Assembly: GCF_024228675.1 (NCBI RefSeq)
Contig: NZ_CP100461.1
Location: forward strand, 496,001-560,000
From: Salinigranum marinum
Lineage (GTDB): Archaea > Halobacteriota > Halobacteria > Halobacteriales > Haloferacaceae
DNA: 64,000 nucleotides
Reading direction: 5' to 3'
Part shown: positions 33,949 to 51,916 of the stretch, piece after piece
Position numbering within the stretch: the stretch's first letter is position 1
Layout: each line of letters opens with the position of its first letter
Notes under the pieces: generated by a model
The model's input: only the letters and a program-made list of their open reading frames with translations
Databases searched by the model: none
Told to the model about the DNA's origin: nothing
Translations under genes and position numbers: made by a program

Positions 33949-34023
33949 GGGTTGGTGGTCTAGCCCGGTTATGACGGCTCCTTCACACGGAGCAGGCCGG
34001 CGGTTCGAATCCGCCCCAACCCA
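33949..34023 (+). tRNA. tRNA-Val (anticodon CAC)
   Basis: The acceptor strands GGGTTGG and CCAACCC pair fully, followed by discriminator A at 34023. The anticodon arm CTCC-TTCACAC-GGAG gives anticodon CAC (valine). The T arm is GGCGG-TTCGAAT-CCGCC. CCA is not encoded. The 3' 15 bases are part of an 18-base repeat found again at 45833, so this tRNA is the likely integration site of an island. Confidence 0.95.
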
Positions 34024-34026
34024 TCC
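34009..34026. repeat. Attachment site attL (tRNA 3' end copy)
   Basis: ATCCGCCCCAACCCATCC covers the end of the tRNA-Val gene plus three bases. The same 18 bases occur at 45833-45850. A chance match of this length within 12 kb is very unlikely. Confidence 0.8.
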
Positions 34027-34237
34027 TTCTTTCGACTTCAACCAAAGGAGTAGACGGGAGCCGATTCACCCCGTGTGTACCCCTTCAGAGAGGCATCAGT
34101 TGATCCGGTGAACGGGTGGCACGTCTCGATGGATGCGCCGTCCGGTGATTGTGCGAAAGGAGATTGTCGGGCGAGGTTCGAAAGTGTTTCCGTTGGACGA
34201 TTAGTGTCACCCATCATCAAAATGAGACACAGCAAGA

Positions 34238-34313
34238 TGTGAATCCATCGACAAGCCCAACCACAATCACCGCAACTACTACGAACACAAGAAAAATGTG
34301 GATCCATCGACAC
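34238..34313. repeat. Direct repeat of 17 bases, one mismatch
   Basis: ATGTGAATCCATCGACA at 34238-34254 recurs as ATGTGGATCCATCGACA at 34297-34313, 59 bases apart, in low-GC DNA just inside the island. It may be a leftover of a recombinase arm-binding site or of an insertion. Confidence 0.55.
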
Positions 34314-34554
34314 TACTCACGTCCACCTTTTGATAAGCACCAACAATGAAAAGTGTGACGACAAACAGAAAGACTGCTCCCGGTTTAAGAAGGTCTGTTA
34401 GTTCGTCCATCACTTCCCGATACTCGTCGCAGACTGAATACACTTCTGCCGAGACCGGAGTTTCTTTTTTGTAGATTTTCCCGATTACTCTGCGTAGACG
34501 CCTACCTGTCAGACAAAATTGGTCAATTTCTGGATGGAGTATATCGAGTATCAA
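34279..34554 (-). CDS. Small low-GC protein with C-terminal membrane span
   Basis: This 91-residue frame is not recognised. A charged N-terminal part (RRLRRVIGKIYKKE, then EYREVMDELTDLLK) precedes a hydrophobic span (GAVFLFVVTLFIVGAYQ). Base composition is much lower in GC than the flanking genome. It overlaps the next frame upstream by 32 bases, and a third similar small frame lies beyond, so the three may form one transcript. Confidence 0.45.
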   Translation of the reverse strand: MILDILHPEIDQFCLTGRRLRRVIGKIYKKETPVSAEVYSVCDEYREVMDELTDLLKPGAVFLFVVTLFIVGAYQKVDVSSVDGSTFFLCS

Positions 34555-34888
34555 GAGTTAACACGGATGGTACCCCGAAAAGTTGAGCGAGATGAAGTAC
34601 CCTGTCCTCGAAAAAATCTGTGACCAGAAATCGACCCACGTAAATGCGGTATTCGATACGAGTTAAAACGCTCGGAGAAATACTCAGAAAAATATGTGTA
34701 ACTGTATCGAAAACCCTCCTGACATTAATTGGGTTGATGGAATCGACGGTGATCAACACATCGTTTCGCTCCGTCTCGATTTTCGTTACTGGTGTCAAAT
34801 ATTCGAGGAATAGAGTGTTTCGTTCCAATTTGACTAATTGTATCCTCGAAGGTTTCAGAATCATAGTTGTTTTCACCAACATCGTCAA
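34523..34888 (-). CDS. Hypothetical low-GC protein
   Basis: This 121-residue frame is rich in Thr, Ile, Val and Arg (NDVLITVDSINPINVRRVFDTVTHIF), unlike the acidic core-genome proteins. There is no recognised motif or membrane span. It lies between two membrane-span frames on the same strand, separated from the upstream one by 54 bases. Confidence 0.4.
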   Translation of the reverse strand: MTMLVKTTMILKPSRIQLVKLERNTLFLEYLTPVTKIETERNDVLITVDSINPINVRRVFDTVTHIFLSISPSVLTRIEYRIYVGRFLVTDFFEDRVLHLAQLFGVPSVLTLDTRYTPSRN

Positions 34889-34942
34889 TCCTCTTGTATG
34901 GCTTTTCTACCCGACTTCCCCGACCACCAGAGTACGGGGCGG

Positions 34943-35188
34943 CTAATACTCGAAGGTTAAGTGTCGTTGTACCATTAAGTATCGAGTATTTGTAAAGTAG
35001 TATTTCACCTTGTAAGTTGAACCCAAGTTCGTATCATCCAGTTGCTCCAAAGTCTCACGCGTTTGCGCTGTCAACTGACCTGTGTACGAGAATCCCGATA
35101 CCACGAACGAAAGTGAGGCGATGATGATACTGATGAGGAGTAGACCAACCTCCAGCGAGAGGAAACTGACCATACTGGTGACAGTCAA
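34943..35188 (-). CDS. Small membrane-anchored protein, low GC
   Basis: This 81-residue frame has one clear membrane span near the N-terminus (GLLLISIIIASLSFVVSGFSY) followed by a polar part with a possible coiled coil (TAQTRETLEQLDD). It is not recognised. It would be the first gene of the three small minus-strand frames. Confidence 0.5.
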   Translation of the reverse strand: MTVTSMVSFLSLEVGLLLISIIIASLSFVVSGFSYTGQLTAQTRETLEQLDDTNLGSTYKVKYYFTNTRYLMVQRHLTFEY

Positions 35189-35232
35189 TGCACGGGTATG
35201 AAAAGATTTGATGTCCAGCGCTCAGTAGAACG

Positions 35233-35376
35233 ATGACCTCCTTCGACCCTGATGAACATCCGAAAGACGTGTGTCCTGAGCGTGGAGCCGATGTTGAGAC
35301 GACCCGAGAGTCGAAGCACTCGACTGGAACGGCGACCCACGTAAACTACAGAGACGCTTGCACCGAGTGTGAGTGA
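35233..35376 (+). CDS. Degenerate small zinc-ribbon protein, 47 residues
   Basis: Reading from ATG 35233 gives MTSFDPDEHPKDVCPERGAD and ends ACTECE. The layout matches small haloarchaeal zinc ribbons (CPxCG near the N-terminus and CxxC at the end), but the second Cys of the first pair is Arg (CPER instead of CPEC), a one-base change. It is probably a decaying gene. Another short frame with a CHRC knuckle (35393-35533) follows and may be a second fragment. Confidence 0.4.
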   Translation: MTSFDPDEHPKDVCPERGADVETTRESKHSTGTATHVNYRDACTECE

Positions 35377-35546
35377 AGTAAGTGGTGGTGGGATGACCGA
35401 TGAGTACGATTGTCACAGATGTCGTGAACCATCTCTCGGGCAACACACGGCGCTCGCACGAATCCTAACTACTTCCCTGACTGACGGGACATCCAATCGT
35501 GCAATCCAACACAGCGCCTTCTCGCTCGTCTGATGGACATCTTTCT

Positions 35547-35578
35547 CTTAACCAACAGACGTCCCTGTCTTAACCAAC
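35547..35578. repeat. Short direct repeat CTTAACCAAC, spaced 22 bases
   Basis: CTTAACCAAC occurs at 35547-35556 and again at 35569-35578. The start-to-start spacing of 22 bases is about two helical turns, as for sites bound on one face of DNA. It lies about 210 bases before the membrane pseudogene, with no clear TATA box nearby. Confidence 0.35.
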
Positions 35579-35786
35579 GCGCCTCAGAAAGGACCATACG
35601 AACGTGAGGCAGACGAACGTCACGAAACGGTGTCGACGGACGAGCGCACGAAGGGAGGGCACAGTTGATCACGTGGAACCTCATCACCAGGCGACATAAT
35701 CGGGTCGACGCAGTCGTAACGCGCAACGAGAATCGGGCAGTACAACTATACCCGGAAACGATGTACCGCTCTGTGGTGATACCCAG

Positions 35787-36629
35787 ATGGGTGCGTCGAT
35801 TTCTCGGTGGCAACTGGTCTCGACGGTCACGATCGTCGTCCTGTCGATCGGTTCGACACTCCTCGGTCTCTTTCGACCTGGCCACTACCCTCCGGAGCTG
35901 CTCCCTCAGTTCTACGTCCAGGACCTCGTCGTACTCGTCGTCGGTGTTCCGGCGCTGATCCTCGGCCTCTGGTACACGACACGAGGGTCCCTGCGGGGCC
36001 GTGTCGCCTTCCTCGGCGCGCTGGCGTACATGAGCTACATGTGAGCGTCCACCGGGCTGCAGGTCCCGTTCAACCGGTTCTTCCTCGGGTATGTCTTCCT
36101 GTTCAGCCTCTCGCTGTTCACGTTCGTCGCAGAGACGGTCGAGGTTGACGCGAACACGGTCCGTCGGGTTCTTGCTCCGCGTCTCTCCGAACGGGTCTAT
36201 GCCACCTTCCTGCTGCTGATCGCGGTCGGACTCGCCTTCGTCTGGCTCGCGGAACTCGTTCCAGCGACTCTCAGCGGGGTCCCGCCACTGCTCGTCGAGG
36301 AGATCGGTCCACAGGCACTGGTGTCGCACTTCGTCGACTTGGGTGTCGTTGTGCCGGCGCTGATCGTTGCCAGTGGGTTGCTCTGGCGCCGGCGCCCATG
36401 GGGGTACGTCTTCGCCGGCGTTGCGCTGGTGTTCGGCGCATTACTCGCCCCGACGATCACCGGGATAACGATCGTGTTGTTGGTCGGTGGATCGGTGACC
36501 GTTCCTCCCGTTGCGCTCGTCTTCACGGTCCTTCCAGCGGCTGTCGCGACGGTGCTTGCCGTCACGTATTTGCTCGCGATACCTGGTTCGGACTCACCGG
36601 CGACCGACGAGCGGACCCAGCCCACGTGA
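35787..36629 (+). pseudogene. Haloarchaeal multi-pass membrane protein interrupted by TGA
   Basis: The frame from ATG 35787 encodes three spans, reaches YMSYM and meets TGA at 36042-36044. It then continues in the same frame for 194 codons to 36627 with about six more hydrophobic spans (PFNRFFLGYVFLFSLSLF and onward). The two parts together give a 280-codon protein of about eight to nine spans, matching a type of haloarchaeal membrane protein seen without a name. A single base change (for example TGG to TGA) would explain it. It is probably inactive. Confidence 0.7.
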
Positions 36630-36713
36630 GTTCCTCACCCGGATGCGACCTGTTTGTAACGACATGGTAGCACGTAGCGAAACTGTTTAATACCTAACAG
36701 TTGTGCATATGAT

Positions 36714-37595
36714 ATGCAAGAACCAGGGCGCATATCACTCGGTAGGATGTCGGTCTCTCTCGGGAACCCGTGGATATTTTTCGGCGTAACCTACGCCGTC
36801 ACGTGGAGTTTCTTGCTACTGGCGATCGTTTTCGGAGTGAGCTTTCAGAGTGCCGAGGGCGTGGTGTTGCAGTTGCTGGCACTTCTCGGTCCTGGGGCTG
36901 CCGGTATCGGATTCATCTATCTCGTCTACGATGAGCGAGGGCGCGCGGACTTCTGGAATCGAATCAAACAACCCCGCCGAATCGGCGTACGATGGTTCCT
37001 GGTCATCCTGCTAACCCCGGTCGGGGTGACGATCGTGGCTGCCGTGGGTGCGTCACTGCTGGGCAGTTCGGGAACTGCCTGGGGTGAGGCCGTTCGGGAG
37101 CTGAGTCGTAATCCACTGGCGATCCTGCCGACGCTGTTCTTCGCGACGCTCCCGCCGATCCTCGAAGAGTTCGGATGGCGTGGGTACGCGTTGGACCGGC
37201 TTCAGATGGACCGCTCGGCGCTCGGCGCCAGTGTACTGTTAGGCGTCGTCTGGGCAGTCTGGCACCTCCCGTTGTTCTTCGTCGAAGGATCGTTTCAACG
37301 CGAGTTCGTCGGATTCGCGACGAGCGGCTTCTGGCTGTTCATGATCGGCATCGTCGCGCTGTCGGTTATTTTCACGTGGGTGTACAACCATACCTCGCGG
37401 AGTATCCTTGGCATCATCCTCCTGCACGGATGGGTGAACTTCGTGTCCAATACCGTCGAGGTCGCGGACGAATACTACTACCCGGCCTGGGTCCTGACTG
37501 CAGTCCTCATTACGGTAATCTGGGGGGCGAAGAGCTTGAGAAAAACCGGCGACGTGCCCCGTCCACCCCTGCCAACCGGTACGTCCCGTGGCTGA
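36714..37595 (+). CDS. CPBP-family intramembrane metalloprotease, copy 1
   Basis: This 293-residue membrane protein belongs to the CPBP (CAAX protease and bacteriocin-processing) family. All active-site blocks are intact: E151-E152 with R156 in ILEEFGWRGYAL, H184 in VWHLP, and H238 with N242 in LLHGWVNF. About eight spans are present. TTTAATA near 36686 is a probable TATA box. Members cleave inside membranes or serve in self-protection; the substrate is unknown. Two more CPBP genes lie in the same island. Confidence 0.85.
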   Translation: MQEPGRISLGRMSVSLGNPWIFFGVTYAVTWSFLLLAIVFGVSFQSAEGVVLQLLALLGPGAAGIGFIYLVYDERGRADFWNRIKQPRRIGVRWFLVILLTPVGVTIVAAVGASLLGSSGTAWGEAVRELSRNPLAILPTLFFATLPPILEEFGWRGYALDRLQMDRSALGASVLLGVVWAVWHLPLFFVEGSFQREFVGFATSGFWLFMIGIVALSVIFTWVYNHTSRSILGIILLHGWVNFVSNTVEVADEYYYPAWVLTAVLITVIWGAKSLRKTGDVPRPPLPTGTSRG

Positions 37596-37863
37596 ACGAC
37601 GATGTGTTCGCCTCGGAACGGTTTCCCATCCGGGTTGATGTTCGGGAAGACGCAGTGAACCACGGTGTCCCTCATTGATCTGCACCTGTGTCAGCACGGC
37701 TGCTACCTACCGGAGCGGTTCTCTCTGGACTCGACTAAGTCCAGTACATCTCGTTGGTCGAGTGGAATGGTCGGCGGGACTGAGACCCCGTGTCCTCGAC
37801 ATTCCCGCCAGTGTGGAATCAGACTACTGTTATTAGTTTATTGTCAGCTTATGTCTATACGCT

Positions 37864-38664
37864 ATGCCGATACACATCGAAACCGTCCTGCGGAAAGGTA
37901 TCAACCGCACTGTCGCCCGGAACGGTCTGCTGCTCGCAGCCGTCCTCTACGTCGTCTCGACAATCAACGCGATCGTCGGACTCGGCGTTCAGCAGTGGGT
38001 AGCGAACCGTGGCGTCTTCCCGATGGGCGTCCCGTTCTCGAGAGGGATGGACGCTGAGATCTCACGGGAGATGGGCGCTGCGCTGTTCGCCATCCCTCCA
38101 GCCGTAGGCGCCATCGTCTCCCTCCTGGCGGGCCTGGCCACGATTATCCTCACCATCGGCGCGCTCCGGACCTTCGTGAGCGACGAGACCGAGCGCCTGC
38201 CGAGCGAGCACTTCACTCAGAACATGGTGTGGCCAGGGCTGAACTTCCTCGTCGGCACCATCGTCTTCGGGGTGGTCGTTGCGCTCGGCTTCGTCTTCCT
38301 CGTCATCCCGGGGATCTTCCTGCTCGTCGCGCTCGCGTTCTGGACGGTGTACGTCGCCGTCGAGGACGAGAACTTCGTCGCGGCCATGCAGGATAGCTGG
38401 GGACTGACTCACGGGCACCGGCTGCGGCTGTTCCTCCTCGGGGTCGCCGTCGCGGTCGTCGCCATCGTCGTGAGTGCCGTCTTCGGCGTTGCAGGGATCG
38501 TCGGCGGCGTCGTCGCCGTCATCATTACCCAGATCGGGAGTGCACTGACGACGGTCTTCACGCTCGCGACGCTCGCCGCGGCGTACGAGCAGCTCGTCGC
38601 GCTCCCCTCCGAGGAGACGCCGGTCACGGCAGAGAGCGACAGCGAGACATCTACCCCCGCATAG
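37864..38664 (+). CDS. DUF7847-like multi-pass membrane protein
   Basis: This 266-residue protein has about six hydrophobic spans and resembles the membrane domain associated with glycerophosphodiester phosphodiesterases and haloarchaeal DUF7847 proteins. Visible features are IPGIFLLVALAFWTVYVAVEDENFVAAM followed by SWGLTHGHRLRLFLLG, a pattern of that group. It has no catalytic motif. The preceding 268 bases have TATTAGTTTATTG near 37832 as a possible promoter. Confidence 0.7.
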   Translation: MPIHIETVLRKGINRTVARNGLLLAAVLYVVSTINAIVGLGVQQWVANRGVFPMGVPFSRGMDAEISREMGAALFAIPPAVGAIVSLLAGLATIILTIGALRTFVSDETERLPSEHFTQNMVWPGLNFLVGTIVFGVVVALGFVFLVIPGIFLLVALAFWTVYVAVEDENFVAAMQDSWGLTHGHRLRLFLLGVAVAVVAIVVSAVFGVAGIVGGVVAVIITQIGSALTTVFTLATLAAAYEQLVALPSEETPVTAESDSETSTPA

Positions 38665-38957
38665 ATGGCGACGCGGCTCTTTGCTACTCGGGATTCCACC
38701 GGTGGGACTCCGTGGTCCGGCAATGGTCAGCGTTGGGTTCCGCATCTCGGGGACTGCGTGCAGGAGCGGCGGACCTCCGGCCCCACTCCGATCCGAAGCG
38801 GAGTTCACCTGGGCCGAAGCGATCGTTCACGAAAGGAGTTTGTTATTCAGCACCGTCGGTCCCGACCGACCGACCGAGTCCGTGCCAGACGTTCTGCTGA
38901 CGACGGAGCAGACATTATTCTGACGGGACCCGAGGGACCGGACAGGAGGATACCGGA

Positions 38958-39659
38958 GTGAGTGAAACGACGGGACCGGGCAGCGCGACGGAACCGACCA
39001 CCTGGCGGAGTGGTGTCTGGACCGCTATTCTGATTACGGGTGCTCTCTTGATGATTTATCACCGCTTCGTCCGTCCGTGGCATCTCGAGTGGGGTGCCAC
39101 CGACGAAGAGATCGCGCGCCGACTACCAGGGGACGACATTGTTCCGACCGCGAGCAGCGAGACGACCCGTGCAGTCACGATCGAAGCTCCCTGCGACGAG
39201 GTGTGGCCGTGGCTCGTCCAACTCGGGCAGGGCCGCGGCGGGTTCTACAGCTACAGTTGGCTGGAGAACCTGGCCGGGGCGGACATCCACAACGTCGATC
39301 GGATCGTCCCGGAACTACAACACCTGGAGGTGGGTGACTCGATCCGGATGGCCACGGAGGACTACTGGCTCCAGAGTCCGCTCACGACGATGACCGTCGA
39401 ACGCATCGATCCGGGCCGAACGCTCGTCTTCCAGGGATACGACGGTGGAACGTGGACGTTCCACCTCGATCCGATCGGCGCGGAGACGACCCGGTTCATC
39501 GTGCGCGGACGAACACCGGCGAACCAGTCGGTCGTCGACCGTGTCGTTCGGTATCTGATGTACGAGCTTCCGCATTTCATCATGGAACGCGGCATGATGC
39601 GCGGGATTAAAACGCGGGCTGAACGCCCCGGTCACGTCGGGGACTCCGTTTCAGAGTGA
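38958..39659 (+). CDS. Membrane-anchored SRPBCC-fold protein, copy 1
   Basis: This 233-residue protein (GTG start) has one N-terminal span ([15 protein letters not shown]) and then an SRPBCC/START-like ligand-binding fold. The signature region is [25 protein letters not shown] and IHNVDRI. The fold binds hydrophobic ligands in a cavity. A second copy at 45127 has the same layout. It is convergent with, and overlaps by 28 bases, the next gene. Confidence 0.75.
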
Positions 39660-40342
39660 GGGTTTCCTCGCTCTTCGAGGGTGTAACGCTGCCGTCGGAA
39701 GTGCACGGCGACGAGGAACGTCGAGACGGGGACGGCGACGACCCACAGACCCGCCAGTGGGAGAAATCCCGGGTCGACGAAGTACGTGAGAAAGACGGGG
39801 ATCGTGACGATGCCGTTGGCGACGAAGAACCGGCGGATCCACCGTCGCAGTCCACCACCAGCAAACACCGGAGCGACCGCCAGCGTCGCCAGCCCCAGAA
39901 ACAGGTACCTCAAGCCGTCGACGGCTTGGAGGAATATCCCGAAGGTGTCTGCGAGGAGCATCCTCTCGATCTCGCTCAACGTTCCGCGCTGGGCTTTCGG
40001 GAGGTACACGAACAGCTGCACGATGTACATGAGCGACACCTGTGACGCGTAGAGGACGGCGAAGGTCACCCCCGTGAAACTCCAGACTCGCTGGTCCCCG
40101 GACACCGTGTGGTGGATGCTACTCATCATGACCACGATGGTAACGGCGAGGATCAGCGACGATGCATCGACCAACCGAATGCCGAGCAGCCGCGGGATCG
40201 CGTCCAACAGCTCCAACAACGCCGCGACCGAACAGACGGTGGCGCTCACTGCTGCGAGTAGGGCTGACCAGAAGCCGAGCCGGTTGATCGGGTCTCGACT
40301 CCACGTGTGAAGCAGTCGGTCAAACGAACGCGGAGTTATCAT
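39632..40342 (-). CDS. Multi-pass membrane protein, unknown
   Basis: This 236-residue protein has about six spans and no recognised motif. I place the start at 40342 (MITPRSFDRLLHTW); the frame extends upstream through an unlikely AAIIIIIM stretch translated from promoter-like AT-rich DNA. Its 3' end overlaps the SRPBCC gene convergently. Confidence 0.6.
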   Translation of the reverse strand: MITPRSFDRLLHTWSRDPINRLGFWSALLAAVSATVCSVAALLELLDAIPRLLGIRLVDASSLILAVTIVVMMSSIHHTVSGDQRVWSFTGVTFAVLYASQVSLMYIVQLFVYLPKAQRGTLSEIERMLLADTFGIFLQAVDGLRYLFLGLATLAVAPVFAGGGLRRWIRRFFVANGIVTIPVFLTYFVDPGFLPLAGLWVVAVPVSTFLVAVHFRRQRYTLEERGNPHSETESPT

Positions 40343-40468
40343 TATAATGATTATTATTGCTGCACATAGCCCAATAAGCGTATCCCGAGACCTCTCGGAC
40401 GGTCGTGTGCTGCACAGGAACGCTGCGCTCACCGGCTGAACCGGTCGACGGCTCACTGTCTCCGACGG

Positions 40469-41260
40469 TCAGTTGTCAGGTTCGAAGTCGGGTGACGCCT
40501 CCGTGCACTGATCGACGACGAACTCGCGAACGACCCTGGTATACGCGTCCGGCCGTTCGAGGTTCACCGTGTGCCCAGCGTCACGGATCGCGACCACAGA
40601 GACGTCCGACGATTCGACGCTCCGTTCGACCGCTGCTGGTCTGTTGATGCGGTCGTTCTCGCCGTTCAGCAGGATTACCGGACCCGGATAGGCCGCGAGA
40701 CGCTTCTGAAAATCCCTATCGACGAGTGCCAGCCCAGCCTGGCCCCACGCGTCGAACGAGAGACCCGCGTTCAGAATCGAGTCGACAGTGCCGTCGGGGA
40801 GCGGGAGTGACCGCAGACGGGACCGAGTCGTCCGCTCGAACCAACTCGTGATGGGTGGGATGTGAGCACCGAGTCGAAACAACAGGCTACTGATCCTCGT
40901 TCGAAGTCCCAGCCACCCCCGGTAGCCGGCACTGCTCCCCGAGAGCACGAGTCCGGAGATGAGGTCCGAATTTCGAGCCGCGACTTCGATCGCCACGTAG
41001 CCACCCAGGGACTGCCCGACAAGTACGAGACAGTCCGCGTTCGCACGCTGCACGATCCTTTCGACCGTATCGATGGCCTCCTAGAAGTGAAACGGTTCAT
41101 CGATTCTCGTTCCGTGCCCAGGGAGGTCGAGAGCGACGGTCTGGTAGGTATCCGAGAGCGACTCGACCTGTGGGAGCCACATCTTCCGCGAAATCCCCGC
41201 GCCATGTATGAAGAGGATAACGGGCGTATCAGTCGGTCCACGGCTATCGACTGCTGTCAT
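40469..41260 (-). pseudogene. Alpha/beta hydrolase interrupted by an in-frame TAG
   Basis: From ATG 41260 the protein begins MTAVDSRG and shows the oxyanion-hole HGAG and LDLPGHGTR, then meets TAG at 41081-41083. The same frame continues EAIDTVERIVQRANADCLVL to the nucleophile elbow GQSLGG, an acid in NGENDR and the catalytic His in DAGHTV, ending at 40469. Everything except the one amber codon looks intact. It could be inactive, a sequencing error, or rarely readthrough. A TTG start at 41329 overlapping the HXXEE gene is an alternative. Confidence 0.75.
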
Positions 41261-41321
41261 CGGTCGCAGTTCGTTAGACGGGGACCAAACATGTTCCCCA
41301 GTCGAACTCACGCGGACCAGG

Positions 41322-41858
41322 TTACACAATCCATCGATCGATCCGTTTTGAAAGCCTGTTTGCCCCGACCACGAACGGAACGAACAGGACGAGTCCGAGG
41401 ATACCCGTCATCCTAACAGTCCCGATATCGACGAGGCCCGCGGAGAGGAGTCGCCAGTAGAGTAAAATGGACACTGGAATCACGACCGAGATGGCAGTGG
41501 CGAGCCCCGGCGTATAACCACGGAACACGATCGACTGTCCCACGTGGACGAACGAGTGGAGAAAGTAGCCACCGAGTATCGTGGTGTATATCAAGATACC
41601 GGGCCCGTTCGGGTCGAACGTGCCAGCGGCGGTCGCCCCGACGACGACACAGCCGACGAACCCGACGGCAACGGTAAACCGACGTCGTGTTGAGGTGAGC
41701 ACCCCGACGAGCCGACGCTGCAGTGGCGTCAGGTCGTCACTCTTCCGTAGGCCCCATCGACGAGACCACCTGTCGATCGTGGCAATCTCTTCGAGATCGT
41801 GGACCAGCCAGCTCACGGGGAGCAGCCACAGCACCAGTACAGTCTCCGAGATCGTCAT
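41322..41858 (-). CDS. HXXEE domain membrane protein
   Basis: This protein starts MTISETVLVLWLLPVSWLVHDLEE and has the family motif H20-x-x-E23-E24 inside the first span, plus a second His/Gln motif (HSFVHVGQSIVFRGYTPG). About six spans. HXXEE proteins are predicted membrane enzymes of unknown activity. It sits between a CPBP protease and the interrupted hydrolase, all on the minus strand with short gaps. Confidence 0.8.
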   Translation of the reverse strand: MTISETVLVLWLLPVSWLVHDLEEIATIDRWSRRWGLRKSDDLTPLQRRLVGVLTSTRRRFTVAVGFVGCVVVGATAAGTFDPNGPGILIYTTILGGYFLHSFVHVGQSIVFRGYTPGLATAISVVIPVSILLYWRLLSAGLVDIGTVRMTGILGLVLFVPFVVGANRLSKRIDRWIV

Positions 41859-41900
41859 CAGTTGGTTGTTGGGTATTCGCCTCTCACTACATAGACTCAC

Positions 41901-42764
41901 TCAGCCGAATACCTCTGTCGTCTTGCTCCGTCGCCACAGGGCGACACCGACAGTCACGAGCACCAGCAAGAAGAACGTGTACCAGCGAACGACCTGAGAT
42001 GGTGCGAGCACTTCGCCGGGGAGGTTGATCATCAGATGGAATAGGACGGCGGCGAGGACGCTCCGGGAGGTGTTGTCGTAGATCCACGCGTATAGCGTCT
42101 CGAGGACGACGAACGTCGCGAAGAAGCGCCAGACGACCGGCTGGTATGAGGCCTGACTGTAGTATCCCTCCATCAGGAAGAACGGGATGTGCCAGCTCGC
42201 CCAGACGGCGCCGCTGATGAGGCCAGCGGCGACCGGACTCCAGATGCTCATTAGTCGGTCTAAAAAGTAACCGGTGGAGCCCGTCTCCTCGACGACTCCC
42301 GCACCAACTGTGAAGCCGAAGAACGCGAACAGACTGAGGGGATTCGTGAGCCGCTGGAACGTCGAGACCGGATCGAACGGTTGTGTCGTGGCCCCTATCA
42401 GTACGGCAAGCCCACCAGCGACGACCGTGAGGCCGGGATACAGTAGGAAGATGACGACGTACCAGCGCGGTCTGATGCGACGAGGATTACGGATCCGGTC
42501 CCACAGTTCGCGGAGGCCGGCCATCCCATCGGACCGACGTATCATCGTGATTCCCCCGAGCAACGGGCTCAACGACCCGAGATAGAAGAAGAGGACGTTC
42601 GGGAACGTCCAGACGCTCTCGCCCGAGAGGATGACGAGCCCCCAGAAGAGCCACGCCCAACCCAGATAGATGACGACGTAGCCCCCCAGGTTGAGACTCT
42701 TGCGAAGGCGGGCGACGAGCCCGTCGCCAGTCGTCATCCCCGCACCACCTTCCGTGAGACTCAT
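41901..42764 (-). CDS. CPBP-family intramembrane protease-like protein, copy 2, atypical motif
   Basis: This 287-residue protein has the CPBP layout: a cytoplasmic basic loop (WDRIRNPRRIRPRWYV), then VVEETGSTGYFLDRL, WHIP and LFHLMINL. The usual EExxxR has lost its Arg (EETGSTG), so proteolytic activity is doubtful. The ATG overlaps the stop of the DUF5518 gene upstream by four bases, and the HXXEE gene follows within about 40 bases, so the genes form an operon. Confidence 0.78.
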   Translation of the reverse strand: MSLTEGGAGMTTGDGLVARLRKSLNLGGYVVIYLGWAWLFWGLVILSGESVWTFPNVLFFYLGSLSPLLGGITMIRRSDGMAGLRELWDRIRNPRRIRPRWYVVIFLLYPGLTVVAGGLAVLIGATTQPFDPVSTFQRLTNPLSLFAFFGFTVGAGVVEETGSTGYFLDRLMSIWSPVAAGLISGAVWASWHIPFFLMEGYYSQASYQPVVWRFFATFVVLETLYAWIYDNTSRSVLAAVLFHLMINLPGEVLAPSQVVRWYTFFLLVLVTVGVALWRRSKTTEVFG

Positions 42765-43159
42765 CCGCCTTTCGGGGACGCGGCTCCACTGCGCCCCGAC
42801 TGGGTCTCCCGGGCCAGATATGCGCCCAGATACCCACCGACGGCGCTCAGCCCGATGATCCAGGCGAACAGCAGCGGAAACATGACGAAGAGGATAATCG
42901 CCAGCTCCACGCCACCAGGAAGTCCGAACACCGAGGCGCGTCCGAGGTACAGCACGAACCCGGAGACCAGTATCAGGACGATGGGGAGAGTCGCGAGTCC
43001 ACCTGAGATGGCGCCGACCCTCGCACCGCGTTTCGGGGGCTCCCGCTGGAGGTATCCGGCTGTTCCGCCACCGAACAGTGGCGAAAAGCCCGTGAACGAG
43101 AGGCCGATCGTTACGACTGCCCCGATTGCCGCGTTGCGCAGTTCAGTTTGATCTACCAT
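42761..43159 (-). CDS. DUF5518-like small membrane protein
   Basis: This 132-residue protein has about four spans and the GFSPLFGGGTAGYLQREPPKRGARVGAISG segment typical of haloarchaeal DUF5518 proteins, whose function is unknown. It is the first gene of the DUF5518-CPBP-HXXEE set, coupled by an ATGA overlap. Confidence 0.8.
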   Translation of the reverse strand: MVDQTELRNAAIGAVVTIGLSFTGFSPLFGGGTAGYLQREPPKRGARVGAISGGLATLPIVLILVSGFVLYLGRASVFGLPGGVELAIILFVMFPLLFAWIIGLSAVGGYLGAYLARETQSGRSGAASPKGG

Positions 43160-43242
43160 AGAGAATGGTTCGAATGCTGTCTGGTTAGCTACCAGGGGCC
43201 GTTCTCACGGAGTGGGGGACTTCCTGTGAAGTGATATACTGG

Positions 43243-44055
43243 TCATTCCCGTCTGTCCGGCGGCTCGCGGTAGTTCCCCTGTCCCGTCTCGAATTCGCCC
43301 TCAGTCACCACCCACCCGTCATGCGAGCCGACCACCTCGACGGATTGACGATCGGTGTACTCGTTGAAATTCCAGCCGAACACCCACCAGCTGTTCGTCC
43401 CCCGGAGTTCGACCGAAACGTACACCGCTGTGTTGGGGTCGGAATCGTACGAGACGAAGGCACGGCCGTCGTACACGTAACATGTCTCCTCTTCTCCCCG
43501 AGCCCTGAAACAGGCTGTCTCGGTGCGGTTCTCGTGGGGGCGCAGGAGTGGTTCGCTCGTGGCCGGTGATCGGGTTTCGATGGTGACCTCGCTCTCGACC
43601 CTGGCGTCGACCTCGACGTCGTCGTGCTCGACGCGGAGGTGACTCTCGTTCGTTGGGTCGTACTCGTCGGGTGAAACGGTCTCCCAGCGAACGAGGCGGT
43701 CGTCTCTCACGACACTGTGGTGGTACGTCGGCTCCGTCGGAATCTCGTTCGCTTGAACGCGGAGCATCGGTCCAAAATCGGTAGCGACGACGTCGTACGT
43801 CCACCCGTCTGGCGTGAACGGGTGTCGCACGTTGCCAGTGTCGAGTACTGAGTTGCCACCCTGGTCCGGGAGCGGCACGAGGACAGTAACGTTCGTGATC
43901 GTCGCGGAGGGTGAGATTCGGACCTCGTATGTGTATTCGCTCCCGTAGCTGTCGCGATAGAGGGACTGAGAGTAGAGGAACAGCCCACCGACGACTGCGG
44001 CGACGACCACCAGAAACGCGACGAGGACGATGAAGAGTAAACGGCGCACGTTCAT
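43243..44055 (-). CDS. Membrane-anchored extracellular protein, unknown
   Basis: This protein begins MNVRRLLFIVLVAFLVVVAAVVGGLFLYSQ (start chosen at 44055; the frame opens 12 codons earlier). The rest, about 240 residues, is outside and beta-rich, with four Cys-poor blocks and a C-x-x-C-like pair (CFRARGEEETCYVYDG). The layout YEVRISPSATITNVTVLVPLP is like other haloarchaeal surface proteins that I cannot name. Confidence 0.65.
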   Translation of the reverse strand: MNVRRLLFIVLVAFLVVVAAVVGGLFLYSQSLYRDSYGSEYTYEVRISPSATITNVTVLVPLPDQGGNSVLDTGNVRHPFTPDGWTYDVVATDFGPMLRVQANEIPTEPTYHHSVVRDDRLVRWETVSPDEYDPTNESHLRVEHDDVEVDARVESEVTIETRSPATSEPLLRPHENRTETACFRARGEEETCYVYDGRAFVSYDSDPNTAVYVSVELRGTNSWWVFGWNFNEYTDRQSVEVVGSHDGWVVTEGEFETGQGNYREPPDRRE

Positions 44056-44119
44056 CGATTCACCCCGCTCACCCGAGACCGAACGAACCATGTTGGTGAG
44101 GAGGATTCGGAGAACATTG

Positions 44120-45013
44120 TTAATCCTCCAGTGAAATTCGCGTTGGATCAGTCGTCGGACGACGCTCCACCCGCCGAGCGTACAGGCTCGTCCCCGCGAT
44201 CAGGAGGACGAGACCGACCACACCCCACGTGAGAAGCGCGTGGGACATGTACATCGCCGTCAACAACTCCCAGTTCAGCGTGTCTCCGACGAGGACGACG
44301 TCGAGGTCGAGCGGAACTCGGCCGGTCGTCGAGTTGTCGGCTCCGTGCATCACCATCGCGAGGAGGGCACTTCCCCCCGAGCCGTTGAACACCCACGCCA
44401 AGAGGATCGAGAACGCGACGATGCCGGTGAAGTAGGAGACGACGAGAACGACAGGCCAATCTGCTCGCATCCCGCCGGGGAGAACGAACTGTGGGAGGTG
44501 CCAGAGGCCCCAGAAGACACCGATAATGATTGCAGCTCGAAGTGCGCCGTACTGCGCTTGTAGTTCCGGCTGGGCGAAGCCACGCCAGCCCAGCTCCTCT
44601 TGGCCTCCGCCGATCAGGGTTCCCAGGACGATGCCCAGCACGATACTGAACGGGTCGAACGTGAACGAAGCCCAGTCGATGGGATCACCGGCGAGCCACC
44701 CAACGATACCCGACGCGTATGCGATACCGAACGGGACTGCGATCGCGAACACGTACCACTTCGGATGGACCCGCCAGCGGAGGATGCTTACGAGCCATTC
44801 ACGGACGCTCTCGCCGCTGCTGTAGAGGACGACGCCAGCCGCGACTGCCGGGGCGAGCGGGCCGAGGAAGCCGCCGATGAACCACCACGTCCAAGAGGGC
44901 TCCATCTCGAGCAGAACGATCACGCCTTCGAGACTCCAGGAGATCGCGTACGCCAAGAGAAAGAACGCGGCGATGCGGTGTCGTCTGATCCAGTTCGTCA
45001 CGACGCTGCTCAT
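44120..45013 (-). CDS. CPBP-family intramembrane metalloprotease, copy 3
   Basis: This protein of about 297 residues keeps all active-site blocks: GGGQEELGWRGFAQPEL (EExxxR), FWGLWHLPQF, and MVMHGADN. About eight spans. The start at 45013 (MSSVVTNWIRRHR) is preferred over a frame opening at 45076. It is divergent from the second SRPBCC gene, 113 bases away. Confidence 0.84.
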   Translation of the reverse strand: MSSVVTNWIRRHRIAAFFLLAYAISWSLEGVIVLLEMEPSWTWWFIGGFLGPLAPAVAAGVVLYSSGESVREWLVSILRWRVHPKWYVFAIAVPFGIAYASGIVGWLAGDPIDWASFTFDPFSIVLGIVLGTLIGGGQEELGWRGFAQPELQAQYGALRAAIIIGVFWGLWHLPQFVLPGGMRADWPVVLVVSYFTGIVAFSILLAWVFNGSGGSALLAMVMHGADNSTTGRVPLDLDVVLVGDTLNWELLTAMYMSHALLTWGVVGLVLLIAGTSLYARRVERRPTTDPTRISLED

Positions 45014-45126
45014 ATTTTTACTTCGGCTCCAATCGACAGTAACTCGCGAAGACATTTCTTGGGAAGTAAGAAACACCTGACAGGATTTAACGATTCAATA
45101 CCACATCTTGACAGAGAAGACAGATT

Positions 45127-45990
45127 ATGACCGATATCTGTGACACGGGACGGTCGCCATCGAACGAGCCTGCCCCGAGAGCGGAAGCAACTCGGCGACG
45201 ACGCATCCGATGGGCGGTGGGGGCTGCCCTCTTCGTGGCCGTATACTGGACGCTACTCAGGGAGTGGATGCTCACCTGGGGAGCGACCTCGTCGGAGGTG
45301 GACATGCAGTTTCCAGGCGACGGTCTGCTTTCAGACCCGGACGCACAATCGACCATGGCTGTCGATATCGACGCATCACCCAGCGATGTGTGGCCGTGGC
45401 TTCGTCAGTTGGGACAGGACCGTGGCGGGTTCTACAGCTACGAGTGGGCAGAGAATCTCGTTGGGCTCGACATCCACAACGCGGATCGGATCGTCGCGGA
45501 GTGGCAGGATCTTTCGGTCGAGGATGCAGTCCGACTCGGCCGTGCTGACCGGTTCCCCGACGCGGTCCTCAAAGTGGTCGCGATAGATCCGGAGCGGTCA
45601 CTGGTCCTACAGACGCCCGACGAACCGACGTGGTGGCTTTGGTCGTTCGTGCTCAACCCGGTCGACGAGACGACTACGCGACTGCTCGTGCGCTCGCGCA
45701 TCCGTTTGCCCGAAAACACGGTGATTCGTCTTGCTGCACTGTCGGTACTTGATCCAGTCTCGTTCGTGATGACACGCAGGATGCTCCGTGGCATTCAGTC
45801 ACGGGCCGAACGGCTCGCGGGCGACCGGTCCGATCCGCCCCAACCCATCCAATCTCCGTCGCTTTCTGGAGTAGACCGTTCACCCGCAGCGTTGCGATCA
45901 CGCATCAACCCACCTCAATTTCATCCGGCGGCCGGTTGCGCCTCACCACCTTATCAGGATAATAGAGAAGCAGACCCTTCATCGGTGTAA
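45127..45990 (+). CDS. Membrane-anchored SRPBCC-fold protein, copy 2, with chimeric C-terminus
   Basis: This 287-residue protein matches the copy at 38958 through the span (RWAVGAALFVAVYW), DVWPWLRQLGQDRGGFYSYEWAENL and IHNADRI, and MLRGIQSRAERL near the normal end. It then reads through the attR repeat (45833-45850) and continues about 46 residues of Ser/Pro/Arg-rich low-complexity sequence. Copy 1 ends soon after the same point, so the tail of copy 2 was probably created when the island integrated. Confidence 0.75.
   Translation: MTDICDTGRSPSNEPAPRAEATRRRRIRWAVGAALFVAVYWTLLREWMLTWGATSSEVDMQFPGDGLLSDPDAQSTMAVDIDASPSDVWPWLRQLGQDRGGFYSYEWAENLVGLDIHNADRIVAEWQDLSVEDAVRLGRADRFPDAVLKVVAIDPERSLVLQTPDEPTWWLWSFVLNPVDETTTRLLVRSRIRLPENTVIRLAALSVLDPVSFVMTRRMLRGIQSRAERLAGDRSDPPQPIQSPSLSGVDRSPAALRSRINPPQFHPAAGCASPPYQDNREADPSSV
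45833..45850. repeat. Attachment site attR
   Basis: Exact copy of the 18 bases at 34009-34026 from the tRNA-Val 3' end. Beyond both copies GGAGTAGAC recurs at a similar offset (34047 and 45868), showing that the similarity reaches imperfectly past the core. Confidence 0.75.
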
Positions 45991-46198: not shown

Positions 46199-47551
46199 CT
46201 AGTACGTTGATTTGAATACACGCCACACAATCCGTGGGCGTAGCAGCGACTCAGGAGGTTGTTCCAACATGAACACCCGAACTAACGCTTCTCTGAGTCT
46301 CCCGTCTGAATGGGCTGCCCGCACCAATCGGTCCAGATACCAGTTGATGAAATCAGTCCCCCGGGGCTTAGACCCGGTGGTTTCAGGGAACTCGAAGTCT
46401 CCCCCGACTGCTATCGACCACGGGCTATCGACGATTTCTGCCGCCCGTTCGAAAAACCGGAGTCCGACACCCTCCCGCCCAGCAGACGCCAGCGTGTGAT
46501 GGAGTTGGAGCGCTTCGAGAGCAGCCACCGACATTCCCTGCCCGTAGATCGGATTGAAGCTACAGAGCGCGTCCCCGATGACCACCAAGTTGGCGGGGAA
46601 CCTGTCGAGGTCTTCATACCTGAGACGCCGATTGGACGGAAATGGATAGTGAGCGACTTCGTCTGACACCCAGGAGTGCTTGTTGAGGAGCTGTGCAACC
46701 ACGGAGATGGGAAGTTCTTCCGCAAACGTGATCAACTCGTCCGCCTCCGTTGGTGGATGGTTCCCGTGGACTCCGAGCAGGGTCGTCTGCCAGTAGCCAT
46801 CTTCGACTGGAAACATCCCAACGCCCCGGGTTCGAGCCGGTTCAGGTGGCACAAAGAAATTCCGCCGATCGTCTCTAGGACGTTCGACCATCACGGTGCT
46901 GTAGGCCAAGTCGATCTGCACCTCCTCGACAGCCGGGGCCTCGAAGCCGTGGTCGTCCAGCCACGATGGGGTCTTGCTCGCCCGCCCGGAGGCATCCACT
47001 ATTAGGTCGGCGGGGATGGTAGATTCCTCTGAACTGTCATCTCGCACAGTTACGCCCTCGACGCGGGAAGCTGTCTCGTCGAGTGCATAAGTAATGAACT
47101 GGGTGCGGGATCGGAGATCAACGTCGTCGCATGCAGCAACTCGTCGCCGGAGGACCTCTTCGAAGAGTGGACGGGTCGCGTTGTACATGACCATACGGTT
47201 CGGCCCGGCGGCGAGAAAATCGCCCTTCTCGTAGTGATAAAAGTCGGACATGAGATCGATGATAAGCCCTCCAGACGAAATGAGGTCCTCTCCATATCCT
47301 GGGAACAAGTCCTCAAACGTGTCTCGCCCAGCAGTTTCCAAGACGTGGACATGCTGGCCCTGGGGTACCCCACGACGGGTGGATGTATCGTCGGGGATCG
47401 AATCCCGTTCGATGATCGTGACGGTATCGAACCCATCGGTGAGGACGCGGGCTGCCAGCAATCCAGCCACACTCCCTCCGACCACAACGGCATGGGCCCC
47501 GAGGTCCGAGGTCTGTTCGGGGTCGTACCGCGGAACAGTTGCGAGTGTCAT
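46199..47551 (-). CDS. FAD-dependent monooxygenase-like oxidoreductase
   Basis: This 450-residue flavoprotein has an N-terminal dinucleotide-binding motif (VVVGGSVAGLLAARVL), a DASGR motif near the middle and a second FAD contact VVIGDALCSFNPIYGQGMSVAALEA. It belongs to the class A flavin monooxygenase/halogenase/geranylgeranyl-reductase superfamily. The preference cannot be told, and the Trp motif of halogenases is not seen. It lies 17 bases downstream of a second flavoenzyme in the same direction. Confidence 0.8.
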   Translation of the reverse strand: MTLATVPRYDPEQTSDLGAHAVVVGGSVAGLLAARVLTDGFDTVTIIERDSIPDDTSTRRGVPQGQHVHVLETAGRDTFEDLFPGYGEDLISSGGLIIDLMSDFYHYEKGDFLAAGPNRMVMYNATRPLFEEVLRRRVAACDDVDLRSRTQFITYALDETASRVEGVTVRDDSSEESTIPADLIVDASGRASKTPSWLDDHGFEAPAVEEVQIDLAYSTVMVERPRDDRRNFFVPPEPARTRGVGMFPVEDGYWQTTLLGVHGNHPPTEADELITFAEELPISVVAQLLNKHSWVSDEVAHYPFPSNRRLRYEDLDRFPANLVVIGDALCSFNPIYGQGMSVAALEALQLHHTLASAGREGVGLRFFERAAEIVDSPWSIAVGGDFEFPETTGSKPRGTDFINWYLDRLVRAAHSDGRLREALVRVFMLEQPPESLLRPRIVWRVFKSTY

Positions 47552-47568
47552 GATATGTCCTCGGATTC

Positions 47569-48954
47569 TTATGTAATGTTCTGGTTCGTGCGGAACAGGT
47601 TGTCAGGGTCCCACTCCCGTTTGAGGGCGTGGAGGCGGTCGTACCGCTCCCCGTACGCCTCGGAAACTCGGTCGGTTTCGTCGTCACTGAGGTAGTTCAC
47701 GTAGACGCCGTCGGCCGCGTACGGTTCCAATGCCTCGTGGAACTCACGCGCCCAGCTAATGTGTTCCTCGTCCCGCTCGGGGTCAGTCCACTTCGGGGCG
47801 ACGGTGAACGCGAACGCCCGGTCGCGGTGTGGGAAGGCAGTCGCGTCGTGGCCGCGCTCGGCGATCGCGCCCCCCATCCACTCGAAGAACACCGTCGAGT
47901 ACGGCGACGGGATCGACGCCGTGTACTCGATCACCGTCTCGACGAGTCCTTCGGAGATCTCGTCGTAGAAGTTCGACTTCCAGTAGTTCCGGTGGCCCTC
48001 GCAGTAGAGATCGTCGGCCTGTTGCTGGTGTTCGGTGTACGGAATCCGTTGTGTCATGTCGTCAATCGGATCGCCGAACTCCCGGAGCGGCTGGAACGCC
48101 TCCCTTCCCGCGGAGACGTCACCCGCGTACAGCCCCCGGAACGCCAGCAGCGTCACTCCGTGTAACTCCTCGGGCAATCCGTACTCGGGACTGCCCTCCA
48201 GTATCGCCGCGTAACAGCCGACCTCGTTCGGTGCCTCGCGCATGAACTCGTCGTAGAACTGGAGCGTCTCTGGAATCTGGTCCGGAGGATATATGAGCCG
48301 GACGGTGAGGGTCTCGGGGCCGAGTTCGTGGAGTTCGAACTCGAACGACGTGACGACGCCGAAGTTGCCGGCGCCCCCGCGAAGCCCCCAGAACAGTTCC
48401 GGGTGCTCCTTCGCGCTCGCGGTGACGAGTTCGCCCTCGGCCGTGACGACATCCATCGATCGGAGGTTGTCGTGAGCGAGGCCATACTTCCGGGCGAGGT
48501 ACCCGAGGCCACCGCCGAGGGTGAGCCCGGCAACGCCGGTTTCGGACATGATGCCACCCGTCGTGGCGAGGCCGAACGCCTGTGTCTCGTGGTCCAGATC
48601 CCCGATCGTCGCTCCCGCCTGGACCCGCGCCGTCCGTGTGTCGGGATCGACGCGGACCGCATCCATCGGTGACAGGTCAACCACGAGACCGTCGTCACAC
48701 AGGGCCGTCCCTGCGACGTTGTGCCCGCCTCCCTTGATTGCGAGCCGCAGGTCAAGATCACGGGCGAAATCCACAGCGGCGACGACGTCAGCGGTACCGG
48801 TACACCGAGCGATAAGGGCCGGTTCCTTGTCGATCATCGCGTTCCAGACGGATCGGGCTTCGTCGTAGCCGTCGTTGCCGAGTTGGAGTACCTGTCCGCG
48901 TAGCTGCTTGGCGAACGAGTCGACGGTCGTTTGTTCCAAATTGGTCGTTGCCAT
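47569..48954 (-). CDS. FAD-linked oxidase (berberine-bridge-enzyme-like)
   Basis: This protein of about 461 residues has the PCMH-type FAD-binding domain. KGGGHNVAG carries the His normally bound to FAD, and the later LATTGGIMSETGVAGLTLGGGLGYLARKYG block lacks the second Cys of two-link enzymes. It ends with the BBE domain (YVNYL, RYDRLHALKREWDPDNLF). Members oxidise sugars, alkaloids or polyketides. The start at 48954 follows from the family and from the divergent regulator. Substrate unknown. Confidence 0.87.
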   Translation of the reverse strand: MATTNLEQTTVDSFAKQLRGQVLQLGNDGYDEARSVWNAMIDKEPALIARCTGTADVVAAVDFARDLDLRLAIKGGGHNVAGTALCDDGLVVDLSPMDAVRVDPDTRTARVQAGATIGDLDHETQAFGLATTGGIMSETGVAGLTLGGGLGYLARKYGLAHDNLRSMDVVTAEGELVTASAKEHPELFWGLRGGAGNFGVVTSFEFELHELGPETLTVRLIYPPDQIPETLQFYDEFMREAPNEVGCYAAILEGSPEYGLPEELHGVTLLAFRGLYAGDVSAGREAFQPLREFGDPIDDMTQRIPYTEHQQQADDLYCEGHRNYWKSNFYDEISEGLVETVIEYTASIPSPYSTVFFEWMGGAIAERGHDATAFPHRDRAFAFTVAPKWTDPERDEEHISWAREFHEALEPYAADGVYVNYLSDDETDRVSEAYGERYDRLHALKREWDPDNLFRTNQNIT

Positions 48955-49091
48955 CGTGTCATGACCTCCGTCGGGTCCACATTCAGTATGAGCGACCAGC
49001 CATTTGCACTTACCCAGTGAGGTGTTTCCCACCCCGTCGGCGTTTTCCCACGGGCCGAAACTTGATACCGATCCCCATGGTATGTTATCTC

Positions 49092-50593: not shown

Positions 50594-51916
50594 TTAGGGT
50601 TTGGCGTCTACCACCTCTGTCCGAGGTTGGAATCCTCGGGAGAGGTCGTGAAGATAGACTCCGGGCTGTGCCAACCAGCCGGTACTCCTATCCCCGGACA
50701 ACTGCCCGGATGACTCGGAGTTACTTTGATTGATGTCGAGACGGATGTTCTCCGCCCCGTTCACGTCAGCGTTGAACGCCGCGTCACACTTCTCACACAC
50801 GTACAAGCCACGCTCAACGCGCTGACTGTCGTCTTCTCTACCGCACACGCAACACGTCTTACTCGTGTCGCGCTCGGACACTTCTACGACTTCGATGCCC
50901 TCAACCGTCGCCTTGTATTCGAGGATGTTCGAGAACCTATCGAACGCCCACCCGTGCAGGTCGAGATTGCCGTGCCGCCCCCAGTTCTTCGACTCGTCGT
51001 TATCGTCCTCTTCGCGGACTCCAGCGAGTTCTCCGATGTTGATGTGACACACTCCCTTCTCGATACACCGTTCAACGATGTGTTTAGCGAGGCTGTGGAA
51101 GAAGTGAGTACGGCGCTCCGACCACTTCGCGTGGAGTCGAGTGGCTTCTTGACCCCCCGAGTCGTCGCACTTGGCGATTTCCTTCGGGAAGGAGTAGCCG
51201 TCCTGTCTCAAGCGATTGCCGGGGTACAAGTCGGCTTCCTCGGTACTGTACGCGACCGCCGCGAAGTTACAGATGCCGAGGTCGATACCCGCCGTCTCCT
51301 CGCCGGGTGCGTTGGGCGTCTCTACTTCGGCTTTGCAGACAAGGTGGAGTTCCCAGCGTCCCTTTGCCTTGTCGTAGACGGCTCTGACCTGCTGGAGATT
51401 CTCGACCGTGACTCCGGGCCGCGTCTCGTATTCGACAAGGATGTATTCCCACGCTCGGGGGTGTTCCTTGTGATTCGCGCCCTTTGAAAGTCGGACACGG
51501 TTGTTCTTGGTGTCGTGTTTGATGCCGTTCTGCTTCCACGTCACCGTCGAACGGGGGTGTTCTTCGTGGACGCGGTTGCCGTGGTCGTCGTAGTAGTTTT
51601 TCTTGCGGTAGCCGGGCGGGTTCGCTCGACTGTCTGACTTCCTCTTGCCGTCCCACGAGTTGAAGGCTTCAGCGAGTTCCTCCAGAACGCGCTGACTGGA
51701 CTGTGAGTGCAGTCCTTTGTATTTGATGTGACCTTTCAACTCGTCTTTGAGGTCGCCGTGGTCAGGAATCTCGCCGGTTTCATCCCACACTTGGCGGGAA
51801 TGGTAATTGGCGACGTTCCAGAGCTTGCTGGCCGACCACCCGTGCCGGTCGAGCGGTTCCTCTACCTGACTGTGGTTGAGGATTTTCGCTCGGTGAGTGC
51901 GGTGGACTTCCAGCAT
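50594..51916 (-). CDS. tnpB: TnpB RNA-guided nuclease (IS605 OrfB family), intact
   Basis: This 440-residue protein has all RuvC-like catalytic acids: D212 (GIDLGICNF), E296 (NIGELAG) and D384 (FNADVNGAENI). It also has a zinc ribbon with C355/C358 and C374/C377. The N-terminal part is the usual helical REC/WED region. Such proteins are RNA-guided DNA nucleases related to Cas12, using a guide from the element's end. I prefer ATG 51916; GTG 51937 overlaps the TATA-like AAGTGCTTATAC. It appears functional despite its decayed surroundings. Confidence 0.9.
   Translation of the reverse strand: MLEVHRTHRAKILNHSQVEEPLDRHGWSASKLWNVANYHSRQVWDETGEIPDHGDLKDELKGHIKYKGLHSQSSQRVLEELAEAFNSWDGKRKSDSRANPPGYRKKNYYDDHGNRVHEEHPRSTVTWKQNGIKHDTKNNRVRLSKGANHKEHPRAWEYILVEYETRPGVTVENLQQVRAVYDKAKGRWELHLVCKAEVETPNAPGEETAGIDLGICNFAAVAYSTEEADLYPGNRLRQDGYSFPKEIAKCDDSGGQEATRLHAKWSERRTHFFHSLAKHIVERCIEKGVCHINIGELAGVREEDDNDESKNWGRHGNLDLHGWAFDRFSNILEYKATVEGIEVVEVSERDTSKTCCVCGREDDSQRVERGLYVCEKCDAAFNADVNGAENIRLDINQSNSESSGQLSGDRSTGWLAQPGVYLHDLSRGFQPRTEVVDAKP

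Follow-up and report, generated by a model that had tools for sequence, protein, structure and literature searches.

This locus raises the question of whether a crowd of genes on a mobile island works as a unit or merely shares a vehicle. The genes occupy positions 36714 to 45990 of a 64,000-nucleotide (nt) stretch of the Salinigranum marinum chromosome (NZ_CP100461.1, 496,001 to 560,000; hereafter the window), where an earlier note, made from the letters of the DNA, had read three CPBP-family proteins, an HXXEE membrane protein, a DUF5518 protein, an alpha/beta hydrolase, and two SRPBCC proteins, and had suggested a joint role in handling a membrane-active lipid or peptide. Our comparisons showed that CPBPs, TM282/DUF5518 (TM282 being a one-span membrane protein), and alpha/beta hydrolases travel together, in varying combinations, on haloarchaeal plasmids and islands. 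The families themselves are already known, fully or in part, and their haloarchaeal association is apparently new: in the literature searched, we found no report linking CPBP arrays to TM282/DUF5518 and hydrolase in haloarchaea and no paper on DUF5518, and a search on Salinigranum genomic islands gave only an unrelated review. With TM282, DUF5518, and the hydrolase as recurrent partners on plasmids and tRNA islands, concrete genes are at hand through which the function of archaeal CPBPs could be tested directly. Profile searches, supplemented for SRPBCC by a structure model, confirmed the families named in the note, and the set reads as follows:

36714-37595, plus strand: CPBP1, Rce1-like (PF02517, 60 bits)
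37864-38664, plus strand: multi-span membrane protein with weak YciC/GPDPase_memb likeness, which we take to be DUF7847-like
38958-39659, plus strand: SRPBCC1, one N-terminal membrane span and a predicted START-like domain (AlphaFold2 model, structure comparison)
39632-40456, minus strand: memb274, a rare membrane protein
40469-41329, minus strand: alpha/beta hydrolase with an in-frame TAG at 41081-41083 (pseudogene here)
41322-41900, minus strand: HXXEE membrane protein with HDLEE motif (PF13787, 77.7 bits)
41901-42764, minus strand: CPBP2 (PF02517, 49.7 bits)
42761-43159, minus strand: DUF5518 (PF17647, 64.3 bits), with a 4-nt overlap with CPBP2
43243-44091, minus strand: TM282, one membrane span and an outer domain of ~230 amino acids
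44120-45076, minus strand: CPBP3, likely start 45013 (PF02517, 55.3 bits)
45127-45990, plus strand: SRPBCC2, whose reading frame runs across the right attachment repeat of the island

All scores lie above the respective Pfam cut-offs (22.4 bits for PF02517, 25 for PF13787, and 27 for PF17647). The families of the note's list therefore stood, and the list itself needed amending: the hydrolase is interrupted, CPBP2 has lost a catalytic residue, the SRPBCC2 tail comes from outside the island, the DUF7847-like gene, memb274, and TM282 also belong, and a broken membrane protein gene upstream (35787-36629) had gone unlisted.

TM282 was present in 46 of 292 genomes of the class, its own included, and we fetched 33 loci outside Salinigranum, picked for diversity and not at random. 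A CPBP lay within ~5.5 kb of TM282 in six of them (L134, L150, L151, L155, L158, and L159; L numbers denote loci) where a density of 3.0 CPBPs per Mb predicts ~1.2 (binomial, 0.0009). TM282 also occurred in 11 records of the plasmid collection, the eleventh being the Halostella contig L159, which is 99.99% identical to a Salinibaculum record and is counted in both sets. Six of the eight distinct haloarchaeal plasmid loci (those of Haloarcula pelagica, Halorientalis marina, Halobellus sp. DFY28, Halobellus limi plasmid 3, Haloarcula litorea, and Halostella/Salinibaculum) carried a CPBP within 6 kb of TM282, relative to 0.04 expected per locus (binomial, 7e-8 at the CPBP density of ten counted genomes). 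Apart from the window's own, those ten genomes were chosen with bias, proximity of CPBP to TM282, HXXEE, or memb274 having already been seen in them, and the genome sizes used for expected values were rounded. The Halobellus sp. DFY28 CPBP was taken from the record annotation, the profile search having missed the gene. No CPBP was found within 6 kb of TM282 on H. limi plasmid 1 or the Halobaculum plasmid, nor near TM282 on either of two methanogen plasmids. Proteins that were CPBP-like by motif alone (L125, L140, L055, L060, L066, L069, L073, L080, L084, L086, L095, L017, and L018) were not counted.

Likewise, the partners themselves are joined in several ways. DUF5518 and TM282 are fused as one protein in L150 (by Pfam), L151, L132, L140, and three Halobellus plasmid records; the DUF5518 profile drifted into TM282 via such fusions, which are quoted only with Pfam, record annotation, or a visible N terminus (L151, L132, and L140). 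DUF5518 lay within 5 kb of a CPBP in 6 of 49 cases versus 1.8 expected, five of the six at already-known loci. Relatives of the window's hydrolase stand intact beside CPBP/TM282 in other genomes. More specifically, the Halorientalis marina plasmid carries CPBP-CPBP-TM282-double hydrolase-CPBP in ~5.6 kb, the hydrolase being 61% identical to that of the window (percent identities are from BLAST); two alpha/beta hydrolase domains here form one gene (L175:6715-8403) directly after TM282, and are separate genes in L164. In the latter locus, three CPBPs and DUF5518 are accompanied by an ABC transporter, a fragment of TM282, and a hydrolase with 58% identity; L167 combines a CPBP with UspA, a hydrolase (63%), and a P-type ATPase (80%). 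On a Halobellus limi plasmid, CPBP and DUF5518-TM282 have as neighbours an ABC transporter and an SdpI-family gene, SdpI being linked to toxin immunity. The note's expectation that its families cluster elsewhere thus held for part-sets of CPBP, TM282, DUF5518, and hydrolase (L164, L167, and Halorientalis marina), failed for SRPBCC, and held rarely for HXXEE. An AlphaFold2 model of TM282 from two sequences was too poor for a fold search and was not used (predicted local distance difference test score, pLDDT, 42.5), and comparison of TM282 with PDB sequences gave chance-level matches only (E 0.43-0.44).

CPBPs are also clustered in their own right. The genome of the window has 11 CPBP matches, and three of them inside 7.6 kb was an arrangement reached in 0.12% of random placements (a post hoc test). 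Across the ten genomes, we counted 119 CPBPs (5-26 per genome), which lay close together above expectation; in Salinigranum salinum, for example, 20 pairs fell within 5 kb versus 0.7 expected. One array of that species (L162:4721-15998; C1:121385-132339) comprises seven CPBPs in 11 kb, with tRNA-Gln(CTG) among them, and is denser than the window's. CPBP matches on their own led to six clusters (L162, L163, L164, L165, L167, and L168, the contents of L167 and L168 being known by sequence comparison with island-protein queries alone). Beyond CPBP, L162 gave a weak hydrolase match with no other island family detected, and no island family was detected in L163, L165, or L168. The catalytic motifs of the family are EExxxR, (F/W)xxxH, and HxxxN. 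They are complete in CPBP1 (EEFGWR, WHLP, and HGWVN) and present in CPBP3 (EELGWR, WHLP, and HGADN); CPBP2 has EETGST at the EExxxR site, so that its catalytic Arg is gone and the protein is probably inactive. A recent tandem duplication was rejected, because CPBP1 to CPBP3 are merely 21-28% identical to one another. The only PHROGs matches were weak ones, of CPBP1 and CPBP3, to a single family without known function.

In the window, CPBP3, TM282, DUF5518, CPBP2, HXXEE, the hydrolase, and memb274 follow one another as a seven-gene run on the minus strand, with gaps of 28, 83, -4, 0, -8, and 12 nt; this spacing and the gene overlaps favour co-transcription of the run. SRPBCC2 diverges from its start, and SRPBCC1, preceded by CPBP1, converges on its end with a 28-nt overlap. 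Ratios of nonsynonymous to synonymous substitution (dN/dS) relative to S. salinum were 0.08-0.41 in ten gene segments; CPBP3 was excluded, because a stop in the compared S. salinum stretch had given it an artefactual value of 1.68. We also rejected recoding of stop codons, because the in-frame stops of the two broken genes differ (TGA in the upstream membrane gene, TAG in the hydrolase).

The remaining families were characterized as follows. SRPBCC1 and SRPBCC2 are ~43% identical and fall below the Pfam cut-off (15.2 and 11.5 bits versus 27.4), and Pfam recognises 1 of 54 members of this SRPBCC family at E<=0.001. Comparison of the SRPBCC1 model (pLDDT 87.9) with 3ijt gave a VIA Z of 12.3 and a root-mean-square deviation of 2.7 over 128 aligned residues, consistent with a helix-grip fold; the modelled domain is a START-like fold with ligand-binding relatives. 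SRPBCC matches occurred in 7 of 60 genomes, own included, and SRPBCC1 had no match in viral contigs. At seven Haloferax loci (L047, L051, L052, L053, L060, L073, and L079), the frame of an SRPBCC relative ends 65 nt from tRNA-Phe, near tRNA-Val. The HXXEE motif reads HDLEE in three and HDVEE in one of four aligned sequences, and the plasmid collection held no HXXEE match. memb274 was found in 4 of 292 genomes; one locus (L145) carries a CPBP2-like protein, memb274 (64%), and SRPBCC1 (77%), with an integrase ~1 kb further on.

The note's placement of the genes on a mobile island at a tRNA proved correct, as these features bound and precede the set:

33949-34023, plus strand: tRNA-Val(CAC), with the left attachment copy in its 3' end, 34009-34026 (ARAGORN, Rfam, repeat search, and pattern search)
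34024-45850, no strand: attachment-bounded island of 11.8 kb (repeats, S. salinum alignment, and GC content)
35787-36629, plus strand: gene for a membrane protein, interrupted by one in-frame TGA (pseudogene here)
45833-45850, plus strand: right attachment repeat, an 18-nt copy of the tRNA-Val 3' end (repeat and pattern search)

The tRNA-Val gene at the left end is the integration site, and its 3' end is repeated at the other end, the 18 exact nt lying inside a 32-nt repeat of 81% identity. The repeat has two matches in the window at <=2 mismatches, a number reached in 0 of 100 shuffles. GC content of the island is below that of its left flank, and the DNA alignment with S. salinum breaks off exactly at the right repeat (45833); the last ~50 codons of SRPBCC2, which lie beyond the repeat and are not shared with S. 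salinum, are thus outside DNA. Two other Salinigranum genomes have tRNA-Val without any island gene and with other content at the site. Conserved chromosome starts again only at ~69148 (window numbering), which makes the island the opening portion of an accessory stretch of 35 kb. Integrase searches covered three left-arm reading frames (34279-35188) and gave no Pfam match in these. The 11.8-kb stretch is a tRNA-integrated, partly decayed cargo island, and resembles other archaeal tRNA-targeted islands in the repeated tRNA 3' end and in content that varies among congeners, differing from them in that no integrase was recognised in the frames scanned.

The sister species S. salinum divides the set between two tRNA sites. 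Its tRNA-Val(CAC) island holds a P-type ATPase, UspA, an HXXEE fragment, CPBP2, DUF5518, another hydrolase, CPBP4, TM282, CPBP3, and SRPBCC2; its tRNA-Phe(GAA) island holds the broken membrane gene, a frameshifted CPBP1, the DUF7847-like gene (91% identical), SRPBCC1, memb274, a hydrolase remnant, HXXEE, and the end of CPBP2. The idea that the set stays together at a different tRNA was therefore borne out by halves. A remnant of the CPBP2-HXXEE junction persists at each site, suggesting that the junction was once present at both. The tRNA-Phe island, which holds the left half of the set, adjoins a tRNA-Phe/tRNA-Val(TAC) pair and contains a stand-alone paralogue of ATP synthase subunit D (L012:13983-14657).

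As to function, we tentatively lean towards a mobile cassette that would protect the membrane against amphipathic toxic molecules, because of the peptide and lipid roles of CPBPs, the HXXEE family to which the acylase MucF belongs, the START-like fold modelled for SRPBCC1, and the SdpI-family gene and ABC transporters near this gene pool. TM282/DUF5518 would sense or hold the toxic molecules at the outer face, the SRPBCC domains would bind the hydrophobic ligand, and CPBPs would cleave peptide bonds while HXXEE and the hydrolase would cleave acyl or ester bonds, thereby breaking the molecules down. A narrower version appears distinctly unlikely, namely an undescribed immunity against membrane-active peptides or lipids of rival archaea, in which a DUF5518-TM282 receptor or scaffold at the outer face would be combined with changing, distant CPBPs and a hydrolase, sometimes with HXXEE and SRPBCC. 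A review (PMC9263693) describes prokaryotic CPBP function as hardly known, and work on Staphylococcus aureus LnsB (PMC7387801) assigns CPBP-like proteins to the tailoring of lipids and peptides.

Several findings weigh against membrane protection. The complete island set was seen nowhere else among the loci examined. HXXEE is rare (3 of 292 genomes), and stands beside CPBP in one of two genomes outside Salinigranum (L143, not L144). Among the best 80 of 384 SRPBCC matches on genome contigs, 78 of which lay outside S. salinum, a CPBP by profile flanked 1 of those 78 (L040), and none of seven further loci (L014-L020) had one; SRPBCC thus stands outside the clustering habit of CPBP, TM282, DUF5518, and hydrolase. 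With the hydrolase and one membrane gene broken and CPBP2 lacking its catalytic residue, part of the set may not work. None of ten island proteins matched a PADLOC anti-phage model at E<=0.01, and metal P-type ATPases and UspA are no less frequent companions of the gene pool than immunity-like genes. The island yielded neither a toxin gene nor a biosynthetic gene. The acylase role for HXXEE would be borrowed from MucF of Streptococcus mutans, a distant bacterial member likened by domain family name and HXXEE motif and not compared directly; two papers (PMC9112991 and PMC8757879) describe MucF as an acylase that converts reutericyclins into far less toxic mutanocyclin and, unlike the island protein, lies within a biosynthetic cluster.

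A possible, if doubtful, alternative, ranked just behind membrane protection, is that the families are unrelated cargo sharing a vehicle and hot spots (tRNA islands and plasmids) and no function. Composition varies between loci, the set contains pseudogenes, the seven Haloferax SRPBCC loci between tRNA-Val and tRNA-Phe have no CPBP by profile, and the S. salinum array of seven CPBPs lacks the other island families except for the weak hydrolase match. The 35-kb stretch after the tRNA also contains oxidases, a TnpB element, and sugar-uptake genes, the latter read from sequence and not searched. Yet the fusions (DUF5518-TM282 and the double hydrolase), the overlapping stop and start codons, and the six of eight plasmid loci with CPBP exceed what shared transport easily gives, and dN/dS is well under 1. 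A third reading, also close behind but in our view unlikely, is a metal and envelope-stress island: the CPBPs, TM282/DUF5518, and membrane proteins would work alongside P1B-type ATPases, UspA, and flavodoxin to help the envelope withstand redox stress or heavy metals, and the window copy would have lost the ATPase part. This would accommodate the presence of an ATPase and UspA at tRNA-Val in S. salinum, ATPases sharing 75-81% identity with that one next to CPBP or TM282 in L151, L158, and L167, the annotated metal ATPases adjoining TM282 in Halobellus sp. DFY28 and Haloarcula litorea, and flavodoxin beside TM282 in L123-L126. However, ATPase, UspA, and flavodoxin are all missing from the window island, no metal ATPase lies in the stretch seen of L164 or of Halorientalis marina, and HXXEE, SRPBCC, and CPBP give no pointer to metals. 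Highly improbable, in our judgement, is that the CPBPs are Rce1-type CAAX proteases maturing lipid-anchored or prenylated surface proteins, with the other genes as substrates or helpers: although CPBP1 aligns with the solved methanogen MmRce1 (4cad) over 18-252 (E=1.3e-20), the CPBPs score 108.5, 87, and 51.8 bits against an NCBIfam equivalog cut-off of 425, CPBP2 is probably inactive, and no CAAX-type substrate was noticed, no search having been aimed at one.

Bacteria carry CPBP/Abi-type bacteriocin-immunity genes and CPBP arrays, CPBP proteins being linked to toxin (bacteriocin) immunity. The haloarchaeal loci resemble such arrays in that distant CPBP paralogues are adjacent and lie near ABC transporters (L164, Halorientalis, and Halobellus) and once near an SdpI-family gene; in contrast to them, they are archaeal, show no bacteriocin gene, and are joined to TM282/DUF5518 and hydrolases. 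The modelled SRPBCC1 fold is similar to the START/SRPBCC proteins SMU.440 and PYR/PYL receptors (VIA Z ~12 to SMU.440 and PYL receptor chains), from which the protein differs in its N-terminal membrane span and in its low identity (6-16%).

Some neighbouring genes recur as well. The protein of the broken membrane gene at 35787-36629 is 38% identical to a family often found beside flavodoxin and sometimes beside TM282; at L123:3886-6320, L126:3935-6330, and L159:5530-9161, TM282 keeps company with an unnamed membrane protein and a flavodoxin (Flavodoxin_5), and flavodoxin and that membrane protein are adjacent in many haloarchaea. Just past the right repeat (window 46199-49032) lie two flavin adenine dinucleotide oxidase genes (FAD_binding_3 and BBE type), and a BBE-type gene also adjoins TM282 in L154. 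A TnpB/IS605-type gene at window 50594-51937 belongs to an element with 99% copies elsewhere in the same genome.

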